A program made the translations under genes and the position numbers. 64,000 bases of DNA, taken from Prescottella equi (GTDB taxonomy: Bacteria > Actinomycetota > Actinomycetes > Mycobacteriales > Mycobacteriaceae). Below, in pieces: positions 7,325 to 12,884 of this stretch. Position 1 is the first letter of the stretch, and every line of letters starts with the position of its first letter. The notes beneath the pieces were generated by a model that was not told the origin of the DNA, made no database searches, and saw only the letters and a list, made by a program, of their open reading frames with translations. The stretch lies in NCBI RefSeq assembly GCF_002094305.1, contig NZ_LWTX01000001.1, forward strand, positions 744,001 to 808,000, written 5' to 3'.

Positions 7325-7725
7325 GCGCCCCCGACGCGGCCGAGGCGTTGCAGGAGCGGGCGCGGGCGGCGCTCGCGGGTTTCGTCGCCGTCGAATCCGA
7401 CGACGACGGTTCCCTGCGGTTCGAGTACGGCGGCGCGTTGTGCTCGCTGCGCGCCGTCACTCTCGCCGACGGCTTGGACGTACTGTCGCTGACCGGGGTG
7501 CTGGCGTGGGACCGGACGTACACCGCGGCGCTGCTCGAGCGGGTCGCCGAGCGTAACGCGCAGGCGCAGTTCGGATCGATCAGCATGATCACGCGCGGGA
7601 ATCTGGCGGACGTCGTGCTGCGCTACACCTTCCCGGCCACGGGCCTGACCGAGGCACCACTCGCGACGATGTTGCTGCTCGTGCTGTCGGGCATCGAGGA
7701 CGCGCGTGGGGGACTGCTGGCGTAA
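7321..7725 (+). CDS. small YbjN-like conserved protein (Rv2360c position)
   Basis: A 134-residue protein starting at GTG 7321, which overlaps the uppS stop as GTGA. It has no membrane segments. Features such as [27 protein letters not shown] and [14 protein letters not shown] fit the type III secretion chaperone-like/YbjN alpha-beta fold, found widely in actinobacteria without known role. The position after uppS matches Rv2360c of M. tuberculosis. Co-translation with uppS is likely. No catalytic residue can be pointed to. Confidence 0.8.
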
Positions 7726-7973
7726 GGGTTCCGCGGCCGAGTGCCGATCTTGGCCAGGGTCCGTCGTTACGGAGACGGCGTCATCTCCGGACGGTAGGCG
7801 CACCGGCATGCCGGCGGGGTCTGGTGCCACCTCGACGGTGCAGGCATTCGAATCGGCGATCGCCGCGCAGTTGTTCGTCACCGAAGCAGCTCGCGGCGAG
7901 CTCTGCCAGTCGGAGCGTGTCGTAGCCGCCGCCCACCGAAAGTCCCCCTGACTCGCGTCGCACGGCCGGCCGG
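7726..7973. other. 248-bp convergent intergenic region
   Basis: Lies between the YbjN-like gene (plus) and the end of the signal peptidase fusion (minus). Open frames exist on both strands but none has a ribosome site or a recognisable protein. No strong hairpin was found. It marks the left edge of the SipW island. Confidence 0.4.
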
Positions 7974-9902
7974 TCACGTGAACGCCTCCTCGATCTCTGC
8001 GGGGACCGGACTCTGCGGCTGCGTCGGTTTCCAACTCGTGGTGCCGTCCAGGTAGACCGGGCCGGCGGCCGACGAGAGCCACAGCTGGTCGGTTCCACTC
8101 AACCAGTGCATCCGCGTGTCCGGCTCTGCCGGGACGCGTGTGACCTCGACGCCGGAACCGTCGACGACCTGGACCCACCACCGGTCGTCGTGCACGAGCC
8201 GAGCTTGCCGTCCGCTGTCCGACGTGGTTGTGGCACCGACCTGTTCGGTGATGGAAGGCATCGGGGGCACGGTGGTTTCGGCTGTCGGTTCGGTGGGCGG
8301 CGGGGTCGACTCCGGCTCCGATGGGGGAGTCGCGGGAACAGGGGGCGTCGTGGTCGAAGACGCCGGAGACTGTGACGTACCGATTGTCGGTTCGGCGTCC
8401 GAGGTCCGTGTCGGGCGTATCTGTGAAGTGCTCGGGGGCGTCGTATCGGGGGCCGAGGTCCCGGTCGTCGCGTCGGGTGCCGATCTGGTGAGAGCCGCGG
8501 CGGCGCAGGCGGTCGCAGTCCTGCTCACGGTGAGCCGCTGGGTCACGAACCCCGCGGATTCCGCGGAGCCGCTCAGGGTCCGGATCTCCGCGACCGCAGC
8601 GGTGCCGGAGAGTGTCCCGGAATCCAGGTCCGAACCGGAGACGGTGGTGTTGACCAGTTGACCGGGCTGTGCGGGAACCGAGGTCACCGTCCGCCTGAGC
8701 ACGATGTTGCGGTTGTTCTCGTTACGTACCGAGACGGTGTACGTGTACGGCGGTCCCAGGTGCGGCCACGACAGGACCGCGCGTGCCGGCTGCGCCCCGG
8801 CCGGTTGGGACACACACGTCACCGACGCCGGGGGCGGAACGTACGCCGGCGAGCCGGACTGCTCGCCGCGGTTGCTGCAGAACAGGTCCTCGTTGCCCAG
8901 TCGGAGGTGCTGTGAGACGCCGATTCCGCGCCAGTCGGTGGAGACGGCGCCCGAGGAGACGGGCGGGCCGGGCAGCATCGTATGGATCTCGGCGTTGTAC
9001 TGCCAGATCGCGGCGCGTGAGGGCATGCCGGCGCCGTCGATGGTGAACGACACCGGATCACCGGTCTTGCCGCTCGCGGGGGTGACGTCCCATGTGCGCC
9101 AGATCATCCCGTCCAGGTCCCGCAGAATGATCCGGTACCGGTACGGGGCGCCCAGATGCGACCACGACAGGGTGACGGGGTCCGGCCCGGAGACGCTCTT
9201 GTCGCTGCAGGTGACATAGGTGTTGGTACCGCTCGTCGCCGCAATACGAGGCACGAAGGCCGCCTTCGTTCCGAATCCGCCGGTGACCGCCGTTGCGGTG
9301 TCGGCATAGGCCGCGGCGGTGGTCGGCACCCGCACCACTCCGGTGAGCGTCAGCGTCGCCGCCGCGAGCACGGCTCCCGCCGTGAGCGCCGGGCTGCTGC
9401 CCCGTTCATCCCGAGCCCCCCGGCGGTGATCGAGCCAGTCGGGTTTGACGGCCACTGCGACCAGCAGGCCCACCAGGATCCCACCGGCGAACACGGCCGG
9501 CGGGCTCGACAACCACACCACCGCATATCCGAGTTTCTCGACGTGGAGGAAGACCCTTCCCGCGGTCTCCACGTGATACCGCTGCACGTCCTCGTCTGCG
9601 TTCGCATCTCCCTTCAGCCGCAACGTGGCTGTGTCGCCCGCAACCGCGTCCACCGCCACCACGCGGTGCGTGATCCGCTGCCCGGCCTGGTCTTCGACGC
9701 ACGCTATGTCGCCCGGGTGGAGATCGGAGGCCGCCACGGTGCGCGAGAAGGCGAGTGCACCGGTGCCGATCTCGGGTTCCATGGAGCCGGAGCGGAAGAT
9801 CAGTGGCTTGATCCCGAACGCCAGCGCCGCCACCGCGGCGACGATGCAGAGGCTGCCGACTACCGCGCCCACCCACAGCGCTATGCGGATCACCCGTCTC
9901 AT
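7974..9902 (-). CDS. SipW-type signal peptidase I fused to a large ectodomain
   Basis: A 642-residue protein. Residues 1-150 form an ER/SipW-type signal peptidase: a membrane segment (about 7-30), catalytic Ser40 in SGSMEP, His79 in RITHRVV where classical bacterial enzymes have Lys, and the LKGDAN motif near 96-101, then a second membrane segment (about 128-150). Residues about 165-200 form a third hydrophobic stretch followed by AAYADTATAVTGGF, resembling the SipW-dependent signals of the neighbours. The rest is extracellular: two similar modules (SWSHLGAPYRYRI and SWPHLGPPYTYTV), a Ser/Thr/Pro-rich linker (about 510-575) and a C-terminal module ending EEAFT. The ATG has GGGAGG upstream and overlaps the preceding stop as ATGA. 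It probably processes the neighbouring exported proteins. Confidence 0.88.
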   Translation of the reverse strand: MRRVIRIALWVGAVVGSLCIVAAVAALAFGIKPLIFRSGSMEPEIGTGALAFSRTVAASDLHPGDIACVEDQAGQRITHRVVAVDAVAGDTATLRLKGDANADEDVQRYHVETAGRVFLHVEKLGYAVVWLSSPPAVFAGGILVGLLVAVAVKPDWLDHRRGARDERGSSPALTAGAVLAAATLTLTGVVRVPTTAAAYADTATAVTGGFGTKAAFVPRIAATSGTNTYVTCSDKSVSGPDPVTLSWSHLGAPYRYRIILRDLDGMIWRTWDVTPASGKTGDPVSFTIDGAGMPSRAAIWQYNAEIHTMLPGPPVSSGAVSTDWRGIGVSQHLRLGNEDLFCSNRGEQSGSPAYVPPPASVTCVSQPAGAQPARAVLSWPHLGPPYTYTVSVRNENNRNIVLRRTVTSVPAQPGQLVNTTVSGSDLDSGTLSGTAAVAEIRTLSGSAESAGFVTQRLTVSRTATACAAAALTRSAPDATTGTSAPDTTPPSTSQIRPTRTSDAEPTIGTSQSPASSTTTPPVPATPPSEPESTPPPTEPTAETTVPPMPSITEQVGATTTSDSGRQARLVHDDRWWVQVVDGSGVEVTRVPAEPDTRMHWLSGTDQLWLSSAAGPVYLDGTTSWKPTQPQSPVPAEIEEAFT

Positions 9903-10510
9903 GATTGCCTCCCGGCGGCGGCCGTGAACACCAGGCGCACTGTGTTGAGCATTTGGTTCTGCACACTCACCGGTGCGGACGGCGCCAGCCGGACGGTCAC
10001 GCACAGCGCTTCCGTGCCGGTGCGCGCGGCGACGGGGCGTGGCGTGGACACCATCGGCGCGGAACCGCCGGCCGTGAGCGCGGACTCCGCGATCTTGGTG
10101 CCGCTGCAGGAACCGGCGCGTAAACCGTTGGTGGCGCCGTTGGTCGCCGCACCGCCGGAGTACGCGGCCACCACAACGTGCGCGGCGACCTCCGAGCTCC
10201 CTGTGGGGGTGGTCGCCGCCATCGTGTAGGTGAGCGGCAGAGTGCCCCTGTTCTGCACGGTCACGGCGCCCGCGACGCTCTCACCCGGCAGCAGGTTGAG
10301 CGCGGCGAGTGTGTTCAACGCCAGGGTCTTCGTGTTGTCGAGTTGAAGGTTGATCGTGCCGGTGGCGAACGTGCCGGACGTGGCTGTCGCCTTGTCGCTC
10401 CACGCGGCCAGGGTGCCCACCGCACCGATCCCGAGAAGCCCGCCGAGAGAGAGCAGTGCGCGCACCCGGATGCCGATCCGGTGCCTGCGCGGAGCGGGGA
10501 AGAGGCGCAC
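9899..10510 (-). CDS. exported protein with SipW-dependent-type signal peptide (third of island)
   Basis: A 203-residue secreted protein. A basic start (RLFPAPRRHR) precedes a hydrophobic segment (LLSLGGLLGIGAVGTLAAW) and the SD-x-ATATSGTFATGTINLQL region, matching the AxW-(S/Q/R)(D/G)...SGT(L/I)xL pattern shared by the three exported proteins here. The mature part resembles TasA/CalY-like beta domains: LLPGESVAGAVTVQNRGTLPLTYT. The GTG start is 3 nt after the sip2 stop. Its stop overlaps the fused peptidase start. A role as a surface or fibre component is inferred from the family. Confidence 0.82.
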   Translation of the reverse strand: MRLFPAPRRHRIGIRVRALLSLGGLLGIGAVGTLAAWSDKATATSGTFATGTINLQLDNTKTLALNTLAALNLLPGESVAGAVTVQNRGTLPLTYTMAATTPTGSSEVAAHVVVAAYSGGAATNGATNGLRAGSCSGTKIAESALTAGGSAPMVSTPRPVAARTGTEALCVTVRLAPSAPVSVQNQMLNTVRLVFTAAAGRQS

Positions 10511-10513
10511 CGG

Positions 10514-11062
10514 TCACCCCTTCCGGCGGACTTGGATGTCTCGGACGAGATTGAACAGGGCGTAGGCGACGAGCACGACGATGGCGCCCGCAACGGTGAC
10601 GGCGCGCTTCTGCCCGGAGAGCCAGTTGTTGACGTAGCCGAGATACGGGATGCTGTACCAGACCTGTCCGCGGATCTGTTCGGTCCGTACCGGTTTCGGG
10701 TCCGGGCTGTCGTTGGCGTCGCCCTGGGTGCGGAACGAGACCTCGCCTTTCGGATTGTGGCGCACCGATATGATGCGGTGCGTCACGACATCGGGTCGAC
10801 CCGATTCCAGTTGATAGGTGATCGGAGTTCCGACGGCCAGTCCGTCGATCTCGGAGGGCCGCACGATCACAAGTGTGCCGGGCGGATACGTCGGGCGCAT
10901 CGATCCGGTGAGGACCGTGAACCGCTCCGCTCCCGCCACGGCCGGGATCAGGACGGTGGCCGCCAGCAGCGCGAACATTGCCAGCGCGACTACCCACCCG
11001 AGGACGCTCCGCAGCCACCGGGTGCGACTTTCGTCGGTGTCGACCGACGCCGACGCCCTCAT
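10514..11062 (-). CDS. SipW-type signal peptidase I
   Basis: A 182-residue ER-type (S26B) signal peptidase. After a charged N-terminus there is a membrane segment (about 18-44), catalytic Ser54 in LTGSMRPTYPPG, His95 in VVTHRII in place of the bacterial Lys, and the TQGDANDSPD motif; a C-terminal membrane segment (about 153-173) ends with a basic tail. The ATG at 11062 overlaps the preceding gene as ATGA, which decides the start; the frame upstream is antisense-like and Arg-rich. It is the second peptidase of the island, so the two may divide substrates or act together. Confidence 0.9.
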   Translation of the reverse strand: MRASASVDTDESRTRWLRSVLGWVVALAMFALLAATVLIPAVAGAERFTVLTGSMRPTYPPGTLVIVRPSEIDGLAVGTPITYQLESGRPDVVTHRIISVRHNPKGEVSFRTQGDANDSPDPKPVRTEQIRGQVWYSIPYLGYVNNWLSGQKRAVTVAGAIVVLVAYALFNLVRDIQVRRKG

Positions 11063-11619
11063 ACCGAGCTCGCTGCGAAATCGAAGGACACCGCGGTGGA
11101 CACGTTGGGTGAGGCGTCCGCACCCACCGTGGCGCGCAGGCACCAGACCATCGTCTCCTGCGGTCGCAGTACCGGCGCCCACTGCGGCGCGGGTGGCGCC
11201 TGGGCGGAGGGGAGCGGCCCCTCGTAGAGCGAGGCGCCGACGGGCGGTGACGATGCGGGACAACCGCTCTCGCTCGCCACCGTCCACACCCCGAGTGTGA
11301 GCGGTAGCGACGCCGAGCTCTGCCGTGCCGACTGCAATCGATACTGCAGATCGACGTCACCGGCATTACGAACGGTCAAGGCGCGCTGCACCACCGATCC
11401 CGGCCCAAGGTCGGTGCCCCCGAAACTGGTGAACTGGTAGTTCTGAACCTGCGTCGGTAGAGCCGCACCACCGACCCGTAACGCGAGCGTGCCGGACCGG
11501 ATGATGCCGCCGTCGATCCGCGTCTCACCGCGCCAGAGCGCACCCGTCTGCTCGGCTGCCCCGAACGCCACGATCGCCACCGCCGCACCGGCGGCGGCGA
11601 GCCACCTGAAGCTGCGCAC
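11059..11619 (-). CDS. exported protein with SipW-dependent-type signal peptide (second of island)
   Basis: A 186-residue secreted protein beginning at GTG (VRSFRW) with GGTGAAGA upstream. The signal region is WLAAAGAAVAIVAFGAAEQTGALWRGETR, here described as a hydrophobic core ending in ALWRGETR, followed by GGIIRSGTLALRVGG, the same pattern as the other two exported proteins. The mature domain has DLGPGSVVQRALTVRNAG, resembling the TasA-like repeats. Two cysteines (ESGC and VWC) may form a disulfide. It overlaps sip2 by 4 bp and follows the first exported protein after 30 nt. Confidence 0.78.
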   Translation of the reverse strand: MRSFRWLAAAGAAVAIVAFGAAEQTGALWRGETRIDGGIIRSGTLALRVGGAALPTQVQNYQFTSFGGTDLGPGSVVQRALTVRNAGDVDLQYRLQSARQSSASLPLTLGVWTVASESGCPASSPPVGASLYEGPLPSAQAPPAPQWAPVLRPQETMVWCLRATVGADASPNVSTAVSFDFAASSV

Positions 11620-11649
11620 TCTTCACCCCCACTGCGATTCGACTGGTCA

Positions 11650-12213
11650 CTACGCGGGGTTCAAGTTCTGTGTGAGCGTGATCAGCACGTTGTTCAGGGT
11701 GACGCTGGTGCCCTGGGCAATCGTGCCCGAGGTTTCCGGGTCGAAGGTGAGTCGGGCTGCGATGGTGAGGGTTTCCCCGTCGTTCTGGTCGGTCACCTGT
11801 GCATCGGGTAGCACGGCTCCGCTGCTCGTGGTGGCGGTCAGAGATGTGTCGATCAGCTGCGCCTGCAGCGCCGGATCGCTGAGTTCGGAGAACATTTCGG
11901 AGGTGTCGGCGGCCAGCGTCGCCGACAGATTCGTGCCGCTGGCCGTGACCGTGCTGGTGCACGAGTACTCGAGTGTGTCGCCCGGAACGATCCGGAAATC
12001 CGGTAGGTCGACAGCGACGGACCGGCCACCGGTGACGTCGCGCCAGCCCGAGCCCGACGTAGGGGTGCACTCACTGAGTGCCAGCGTGCCCGAGGTGATC
12101 GTGCCGCCGCCCGATTCTGTCTGGTCCTGCCAGAAGGCGAACGTTCCGGCACCACCCAGCAGCAGTATGGCAGCGGCTCCGGCGGCCAACGCGGCCTTTG
12201 CTTTCCGATTCAT
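11650..12213 (-). CDS. exported protein with alternate (SipW-type) signal peptide, RER_14450-like
   Basis: A 187-residue protein and the first gene of the island. Basic MNRKAK, a hydrophobic core (LAAGAAAILLLGGAGTFAF), then WQDQTESGGGTITSGTLALS gives the clearest SipW-dependent signal of the three. It resembles the alternate-signal exported family first defined in Rhodococcus (RER_14450 type, from memory). The mature part has DFRIVPGDTLEYSCTSTV, a TasA-like beta segment, and two Cys (SECTP, YSCTS) that may pair. The RBS GAGGGGAGG sits about 7 nt before the ATG. As the promoter-proximal gene it may be the major product, as TasA is in Bacillus operons. Confidence 0.86.
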   Translation of the reverse strand: MNRKAKAALAAGAAAILLLGGAGTFAFWQDQTESGGGTITSGTLALSECTPTSGSGWRDVTGGRSVAVDLPDFRIVPGDTLEYSCTSTVTASGTNLSATLAADTSEMFSELSDPALQAQLIDTSLTATTSSGAVLPDAQVTDQNDGETLTIAARLTFDPETSGTIAQGTSVTLNNVLITLTQNLNPA

Positions 12214-12277
12214 GGTGTCCTCCCCTCCGCGCTCCGCCCCGACGATTGGCGATCGAGCGCTGTTGTGGACTACGTAC

Positions 12278-12294
12278 CCAAACCAGTTGTTTGG
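12278..12294. promoter_or_regulatory. inverted repeat upstream of the SipW island
   Basis: CCAAAC and GTTTGG separated by CAGTT form a perfect 6-5-6 inverted repeat 65 nt upstream of the first island gene. The surrounding sequence is less GC-rich than the genes. It could be an operator for the island. No regulator is linked to it here, and the short arms make chance possible. Confidence 0.35.
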
Positions 12295-12437
12295 TATGCA
12301 CGCTTTCGTCGAATCGGATTCGACAGCGCTCAGCGCAGTGCGAGTACCTCGAGGTGGCCACGAGGTGAGGGGCTACACCGATCGACGTGTCGGAGGGCCG
12401 CGCCGTGAAGGTTCGGTCGGTCGGCGGAGTGCCGCGG

Positions 12438-12884
12438 TCAGCGAGCTTGCGCGCAGTCCCGACAGGTACCGAAGATCTCGACCGTGTGGCTGACGTCGGT
12501 GAACCCGTTGGTGTCGGCGATGGTCTGCGACCACTGTTCGACGGCGGGCCCGTCGACCTCCACGGTGAATCCGCAGGCGCGGCACACGAGATGGTGGTGG
12601 TGCCCGGAGGAGCAGCGTCGGTACACGGACTCGCCGGTGTCGGTGCGGAGCACGTCGACGGTGCCGGCCTCCGCGAGGGTCTGCAGCGTTCGGTACACGG
12701 TGGTGAGCCCGATGCCCTGGCCGCGTCGGCGCAGTTCGTCGTGCAGTTCCTGGGCCGAACGGAACTCGGTGATGTCGTCGAGTAGCGCGGAGATGGCGCT
12801 GCGCTGCTTGGTCGAGCGCACGCCGACCACGGCCCGGCCTGCCCGCTCGCGCTGATCGGTCGGGTCGGTCACGTTCTCGGTCAT
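12438..12884 (-). CDS. zur: zinc uptake regulator Zur (Fur family)
   Basis: Zinc-responsive Fur-family repressor of 148 residues (FurB of mycobacteria). The N-terminal winged helix reads RSAQELHDELRRRGQGIGLT with TTVYRTLQTLAEAG as recognition helix. The dimerisation half has the metal motif SSGHHHHLVCRACG and two C-x2-C pairs (CRAC, CRDC) that bind structural zinc. Its ATG overlaps the smtB stop as ATGA, so the two zinc sensors are co-transcribed, as Rv2358-Rv2359 are. The product represses zinc uptake and paralogous ribosomal protein genes in relatives. Confidence 0.94.
   Translation of the reverse strand: MTENVTDPTDQRERAGRAVVGVRSTKQRSAISALLDDITEFRSAQELHDELRRRGQGIGLTTVYRTLQTLAEAGTVDVLRTDTGESVYRRCSSGHHHHLVCRACGFTVEVDGPAVEQWSQTIADTNGFTDVSHTVEIFGTCRDCAQAR

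Follow-up and report, generated by a model that had tools for sequence, protein, structure and literature searches.

A signal peptidase gene fused to a signal-bearing ectodomain in a putative surface-fiber operon of Prescottella equi

The window analyzed here (64,000 nucleotides of Prescottella equi, positions 744,001 to 808,000 of contig NZ_LWTX01000001.1) contains an operon in which a gene encoding a signal peptidase, PEP2, devotes only about 160 of its 642 amino acids to the peptidase and the remainder to a helix and an ectodomain. The entire operon lies on the minus strand and consists, in the order EX1-EX2-PEP1-EX3-PEP2, of three genes for exported proteins and two for signal peptidases, whose coordinates were rechecked on the window (Table 1). 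The original prediction, made from the sequence alone, had described the five genes as tightly coupled, and the ATGA overlaps at 11059-11062 and 9899-9902 along with the gaps of 3 and 30 nt were verified; its survey question was answered as well, the same five-gene order being found again in many genera. The TasA/SipW-like surface fiber that had been proposed was supported in part, though both the fusion within PEP2 and a second island in the same genome had been overlooked. The reading that we favor, with a probability of about 0.55, is that of a TasA-type surface-fiber operon of two peptidase-substrate modules, in which a TapA-like initiator would be tethered to its own peptidase.

The PEP2 fusion and the signal-like segment inside it are, at the level of sequence, firm and well supported. 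The third-helix region of the window PEP2 (hydropathy 1.73) ends in the SipW-like motif TAA|AYAD, and the structure model of the complete protein (PEP2::ECTO, P0001) places a helix at residues 173-189, with a low predicted local distance difference test score (pLDDT) there. We built signal profiles for EX1 (113 signal regions), EX2 (43), and EX3 (80)—no fused protein being included—and applied them to the third-helix regions of 65 fused proteins, where scores of at least 5 bits were obtained in 57 with the EX3 profile, in 43 with EX2, and in 19 with EX1, the best-scoring profile being that of EX3 in 46, of EX2 in 17, and of EX1 in 2. With the EX3 profile the same score was reached by none of the 65 first helices, by 1 of the 65 second helices, and by 26 of 1300 shuffled tails. 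A strict A-x-aromatic regular expression matched the third-helix region in 49 of the 65 proteins (47 of the 63 named fused loci), with first helices (11/65), second helices (1/65), and shuffled tails (81/1300) as controls. Moreover, the hydropathy of the helix-3 core was at least 1.6 in 61 of the 63 fused loci, and the net charge was positive in the 15 residues before that helix in 58 and in the 30 residues after it in 9, which pattern fits a cytoplasmic loop before the helix and an outside domain after it. No domain of Pfam or NCBIfam scored above cut-off in the ectodomains tried. That the long PEP2 frame might be a product of chance or an annotation artefact was ruled out by its conservation and by the ratio of nonsynonymous to synonymous substitution (dN/dS; see below).

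PEP2 is present in 22 of 41 genomes (our own and relatives). Scanning one genome per species yielded 188 PEP2 relatives, of which the best 80, chosen by similarity to PEP2 and so an uneven sample, were used for counting fusions, a fusion being defined as at least 60 amino acids beyond the peptidase. By that definition 63 of the 80 named loci were fused, two of these being truncated at a contig end, and the other 17 were not: the fused and unfused loci numbered 26 and 13 in the Mycobacteriales, 20 and 0 in the Propionibacteriales, and 12 and 3 in the Micrococcales, with one unplaced fused locus and five further Rhodococcus records, four fused and one not, whose order label of Chroococcidiopsidales/Gloeocapsa is a name clash. 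The fusion thus counted, of a peptidase to a presumed substrate, recurs across several actinobacterial orders; Rhodococcus erythropolis NBRC 15567 (L057) is among the carriers of a fused island. In 12 of the 17 unfused loci the ectodomain is the next gene and has a hydrophobic N-terminal signal of its own (L075, L077, L078, L081, L082, L084, L087, L088, L089, L092, L101, and L129). Most of these separate genes overlap the PEP2 stop, as do those of the Prescottella loci L077 and L078, with the signals TSASFQD and TSAAWQD, respectively; that of L081 begins about 11 nt behind. The aromatic residue is kept in four of the 12 (L077, L078, L081, and L129). As for the other unfused loci, L073 carries an unfused PEP2, behind which come EX3 and another PEP2, this one fused; L091 and L125 have no ectodomain beside PEP2; and L124 and L136 are interrupted. 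In L136, from Glutamicibacter ardleyensis, a single internal stop near 8357 precedes the second helix, and beyond that stop the rest of the fused frame stays open.

A quick tree built from 82 PEP2 domains and two outgroup rows has 31 open forks and long branches (L125 falling with the outgroup) and counts changes without distinguishing gain from loss; by parsimony the fusion state changed on it at least six times, three of the changes being forced by starred branches. We also sampled the class evenly: of 196 genomes, 59 had matches to TIGR02228, the model for the endoplasmic reticulum (ER)-type signal peptidase I (S26B), at E 1e-8; the matches numbered 94, four of them our own. Fifty-five of the others had an open frame of at least 271, and 54 were examined, the first of two neighboring genes in one genome (G227) being left out. 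In 28 rows at least 60 amino acids lay beyond the second helix; 9 of these, including one duplicate, matched the strict expression and 8 matched the EX3 profile, helix positions being unsure in some rows because of a misplaced catalytic serine. By eye, 11 distinct genes had the aromatic motif (L182, L188, L192, L199, L204, L205, L206, L209, L218, L224, and L231). That fusion might be the rule for all ER-type peptidases was accordingly rejected, fused forms being common, yet a minority of them in the even sample. Our searches of open papers in PMC turned up none on such a fusion, nor on the operon in Rhodococcus.

These comparisons bear on an alternative in which helix 3 would be a permanent, uncut anchor and the ectodomain a docking domain—a receptor or base plate recruiting EX subunits or cell-wall material. 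The helix is retained where the aromatic residue is lost, in 16 of the 63 fused loci by the strict expression and in eight of the 12 separate versions, and the low pLDDT around residues 161-211 carries no information on cleavage, either of which would suit such an anchor. The segment, on the other side, resembles the cleavable signals of the neighboring proteins in 57 of the 65 fused proteins, and the separate ectodomain bears that segment as its N-terminal signal, so that we consider a tethered docking domain rather unlikely.

The two peptidases were placed by family, and their likely substrates by the arrangement of the genes. PEP1 passes TIGR02228 (86.4 bits against a cut-off of 51.85), as do the paralogues P0010 (101.8 bits) and P0006 (66.3 bits), while the window PEP2 lies slightly under that cut-off at 49.2 bits. 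The two Ser/His peptidases that had been predicted were borne out: Ser40 and His79 of PEP2, together with Asp99 and Asp105, are invariant in all 14 aligned sequences, and Ser54 and His95 of PEP1 were assigned by reading the sequence. The PEP2 profile found human SEC11A (E 9e-7), and the match to SEC11A/C by sequence and structure points to the Ser-His(-Asp) type, not Ser-Lys. The Bacillus SipW equivalog NF046067 (cut-off 190) was not reached by either PEP1 (78.9 bits) or PEP2 (42.4 bits), so that both peptidases are, as judged from their sequences, members of the ER-type family outside that equivalog. The arrangement of the modules was counted in 82 loci, namely the 80 relatives and our own two islands, all of them selected for containing PEP2. 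Of 90 PEP2 segments, 81 had EX3 as their immediate same-strand upstream neighbor, and of 81 PEP1 segments, 76 had EX1 or EX2 in that position; this pairing is kept despite rearrangement of the modules in L063 (in the order EX1 EX3 PEP2 EX1 EX2 PEP1), L067, L074, L076, L079, L086, L124, and L081, the last of which has one module on each strand. From that adjacency we infer that PEP2 would serve EX3 and the ectodomain, and PEP1 would serve EX1 and EX2.

If, alternatively, PEP1 were to process everything, including the fusion, then the joining of PEP2 to the ectodomain would be a by-product of gene order that involved no functional coupling. PEP1 does have the better peptidase score, and the repeated changes of state on the tree mean that the fusion is not essential; but the catalytic residues of PEP2 are invariant, and five loci (L102, L109, L122, L126, and L127) possess, of the operon genes, only PEP2 and EX3, with PEP2 fused in every one and no PEP1, which combination renders this alternative quite improbable.

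The exported proteins belong in part to known families. EX1 lies far above the cut-off of 60 for TIGR04089 (207.5 bits), a model that EX2 (20.9 bits) and EX3 (15.2 bits) do not reach; TIGR04088, for the SipW-dependent-type signal (cut-off 19), is passed by EX3 (32.8 bits) and EX1 (28.9 bits), and camelysin/Peptidase_M73 PF12389 (gathering threshold 22.5) by EX3 (28.8 bits), EX1 failing at 15.7. EX2 matched no curated NCBIfam or Pfam family above cut-off, with no listing for TIGR04088 at E 1 or for PF12389; its signal reads TGALWRGETRIDGG, and an hhalign comparison of 14-row profiles relates EX2 to EX3 (probability 99, E 6e-20, 153 columns). The TasA equivalog NF046066 (cut-off 450) was reached by none, the EX3 paralogue P0007 alone being listed at 14 bits; by sequence, then, EX1 and EX3 are assigned in part to TIGR04089, TIGR04088, and PF12389, and none to the Bacillus TasA equivalog. 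As to the signal pattern ascribed to the trio, the first motif is present in all three (AFWQD, ALWRG, and AAWSD), while the second, GGx(I/F)xSGT(L/I)xL, holds for EX1 and EX2 and not for EX3, which reads ATATSGTFATGTINL, a loose fit.

PDB sequences searched with the EX1 and EX2 profiles yielded no useful match (two matches for one, at E 0.41 and 0.89, and none for the other). The AlphaFold2 model of EX1 (mean pLDDT 82.1) had the TasA fiber 8aur_A as its first Foldseek match, followed by the donor-strand pilins CfaB, FimA, and FimI; the match to TasA is first in rank but has a weak E-value. The mature N-terminus of EX1 (residues 29-34) is disordered in that model, which is what one would expect if this strand depended on a partner. 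The EX proteins might nevertheless form no fiber at all and be monomeric surface adhesins or enzymes, with the ectodomain as another adhesin. Camelysin was named as a metallo-endopeptidase, which name would agree with such a role; VIA places AgI/II adhesin domains level with TasA for EX1; the ectodomain is Fn3-like; and CalY, according to PMC13082335, acts as a surface adhesin in the early stationary phase. We hold the absence of a fiber to be unlikely, since the other top Foldseek matches of EX1 are donor-strand pilins and since several paralogous subunits with dedicated peptidases constitute the pattern of TasA, CalY, and BsaA.

In the fiber operon of two modules that we prefer, EX1/EX2 with PEP1 would constitute the first module and EX3 with PEP2 the second, and a fourth substrate would be the TapA-like ectodomain, hung from the membrane by its internal SipW-type signal (the third helix) and fused to PEP2. 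The chain would insert so that helices 1 and 2 flank the catalytic domain and helix 3 again points outward; an ER-type peptidase—PEP2 itself, in cis or in a neighboring molecule—would then cut after helix 3 at A|A-[FYW]-x-D, freeing an N-terminal strand ahead of fibronectin-like domains that are already complete, as they are in TapA. Donor-strand polymerization of the EX subunits would begin from that strand; the same peptidases would release the N-terminal strands (xW[SQR][DG]...) of these subunits as well, and the fusion would hold peptidase and initiator in one place and at a fixed ratio. What might count as TapA-like in the ectodomain is the A-x-aromatic-type motif after helix 3 together with the Fn3-like domains. 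Processing of PEP2 by itself would be the natural reading of such a chain; and the stronger proposal of a self-maturing machine, in which PEP2 would cut its own SipW-type substrate out of itself to release a donor-strand fiber initiator, the design being established over a wide range of actinobacteria and the overlapping-gene lineages preserving the other state, we advance only tentatively. If the preferred reading were true, donor-strand TasA-type fibers, known from Bacillus, would extend to a large actinobacterial group; there would be a genetic proof of principle that a SipW-type peptidase and a fiber initiator cooperate, because evolution joined both in one chain; and the coupling of SipW cleavage to fiber initiation could be tested by one catalytic point mutant. 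The annotation "signal peptidase I," for its part, masks two to three quarters of the fused proteins, so that proteomic searches for surface fibers overlook them.

Several observations weigh against that reading. The motif-less fused loci counted above include a Rhodococcoides-type group that reads TLAAGQD or ALAAPLTD, and the eight separate ectodomains lacking the aromatic residue read ANP, ANT, ANN, AST, or ATQ, so that ER-type cleavage is less sure in those versions, fused or separate, and the loss in some lineages speaks for variation in cleavage, or for its absence, there. The strict expression also matches first helices at the frequency given. TIGR04088 did not retrieve P0001 at E 1 or P0006 at E 10, and L119 (18.5) and L076 (17.2) lie narrowly under its cut-off. 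No sequence link between the ectodomain and TapA turned up, no TapA profile having been applied; and the Fn3-like ectodomain varies in size and sequence between lineages. Finally, the match of EX1 to TasA is weak (E 1.9e-3, no PDB match being at or below 0.001), its VIA Z being 5.6, with best rows of 6.1 for AgI/II adhesin domains and none at 8 or above.

Among known systems, we propose by analogy that the operon may work like tapA-sipW-tasA of B. subtilis, for which PMC10151520, PMC9674648, and PMC10269814 describe an ER-type peptidase, TasA-like subunits whose second residue past the cut is aromatic, and an initiator with a complete immunoglobulin (Ig)-type domain and a donor-strand-like N-terminus. 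There the TasA cleavage site is TWA|AFND (PMC10269814) and the donor strand corresponds to residues 28-38, that is, to the new N-terminus (PMC9674648), while TapA, which starts AFHDI and whose Ig fold is complete, is encoded by a gene overlapping sipW (PMC10151520). The present operon differs in having two peptidases, one of which is joined to an initiator-like protein, and distant EX sequences. The sipW-bsaABCRSD operon of C. perfringens likewise involves the SipW-dependent secretion of a polymerizing surface protein along with further putative secreted proteins, but with one SipW and a two-component system—which is lacking here—and no fusion is mentioned in the portion of PMC7395162 at hand; EX3 scores only 14.7 bits for TIGR04090 (BsaA). 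In sipW-tasA/calY of B. cereus, two TasA-like subunits and the chaperone-like CapP are all SipW-processed, but by a single peptidase, and again the excerpt of PMC13082335 mentions no fusion. TIGR04089 (alternate-type signal peptide domain, RER_14450 family), of which EX1 is a clear member, is silent on the operon, the two peptidases, and the fusion. As for the archaeal bundling pili AbpX/AbpA, AbpX chains were the sole PDB sequence matches of the EX3 profile, at nonsignificant E-values of 0.22 and 0.31.

The second island (island A), on contig 2 of the same genome, has the same order of EX1-EX2-PEP1-EX3-PEP2 and a fused PEP2 of 586 amino acids in which TSAAFTDSATAKSG comes after the third helix; a further EX1-like gene lies behind. 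All four TIGR02228 matches of the genome (E 1e-8) and all four of its above-cut-off TIGR04088 matches fall within the two islands. Between the window island (island B) and its closest copy, L037, dN and dS were 0.052/0.655 in EX1, 0.089/0.362 in EX2, 0.126/0.421 in PEP1, 0.153/0.520 in EX3, 0.072/0.500 in the PEP2 domain, and 0.183/0.489 in the ectodomain, dN being well below dS in all six stretches. The operon is absent from this site in 13 of 13 congeners, whose neighbors on both sides—which by eye we take to be zur and uppS—lie 406-554 nt apart, versus 5119 nt here; the flanks, as aligned to five congeners, end at 7724/7725 and 12442-12451 and are contiguous there except for a short spacer. 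The only other copy of the window island among the relatives searched, in genome G007 (80% identity over the first 220 amino acids), aligns over 7980-12253 with 81.5% DNA identity at a different place, its own zur-uppS site being empty; Nocardia higoensis (L060) is next nearest on the PEP2 tree. The window copy thus resembles a cassette acquired from an external source. A plasmid origin was rejected: tblastn of P0001 against 72,556 plasmid records returned four records, which matched the peptidase part only, none covering 80%.

Table 1. Positions in the window of the operon genes, the parts of PEP2::ECTO, and the inserted segment.
Feature	Position	Strand	Description
EX1	11650-12213	-	SipW-type exported protein; TIGR04089 (RER_14450/exp_by_SipW_III) family; predicted fold possibly TasA-like
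EX2	11059-11619	-	SipW-type exported protein; relative of EX3
PEP1	10514-11062	-	ER-type (S26B) signal peptidase, 182 amino acids
EX3	9899-10510	-	SipW-type exported protein; camelysin/TasA superfamily
PEP2::ECTO (P0001)	7974-9902	-	ER-type signal peptidase fused to exported ectodomain, 642 amino acids
PEP2 catalytic domain with membrane helices 1 and 2	9423-9902	-	Residues 1-160
Third membrane helix of PEP2::ECTO	9333-9383	-	Residues 174-190; core of internal SipW-like signal
Predicted cleavage region of PEP2::ECTO	9303-9314	-	A197|A198-Y199-A200, then D201; from sequence and alignments
Two fibronectin-like beta domains of ectodomain	8505-9215	-	Residues about 230-350 and 354-466
Ser/Thr/Pro-rich disordered linker of ectodomain	8244-8480	-	Residues 475-553; pLDDT mostly <50
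Small C-terminal beta domain of ectodomain	7977-8207	-	Residues 566-642; common to paralogue P0006 (alignment)
Inserted segment carrying the operon	7726-12441		From flank alignment to congeners

The small C-terminal beta domain is modeled with a pLDDT of about 84-94 per ten-residue block. Upstream of EX1, a perfect 8-bp inverted repeat, GTCGAATC-G-GATTCGAC, at 12308-12324 might be an operator; neither that repeat nor another at 12346-12366 has a counterpart at the same place in L037. The EX1-like protein behind island A (L006:8787-9401), a gene that island B lacks, starts in a lipoprotein-like fashion (LTAC) and not in a SipW-like one, which makes that protein a candidate for a lipid-anchored fiber base; relatives occur at L039:5716-6342, L041:5608-6219, L042:10819-11394, and L043:5977-6573. 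Near island A, and also in several congeners, a gene at L006:11619-12251 reads by eye like one for a resuscitation-promoting factor, as which we provisionally regard it. In the Aeromicrobium loci L093, L114, and L116 two complete copies of the operon stand in tandem. Two Propionibacteriales loci carry between PEP1 and EX3 an extra exported protein (L097:6874-7359 and L107:3552-4214) that perhaps replaces EX2 and whose signal, AAPPASAA, looks ordinary; and the genes downstream in that order resemble, by eye, what are presumably pdxT, yebC, ruvC, ruvA, ruvB, and yajC.

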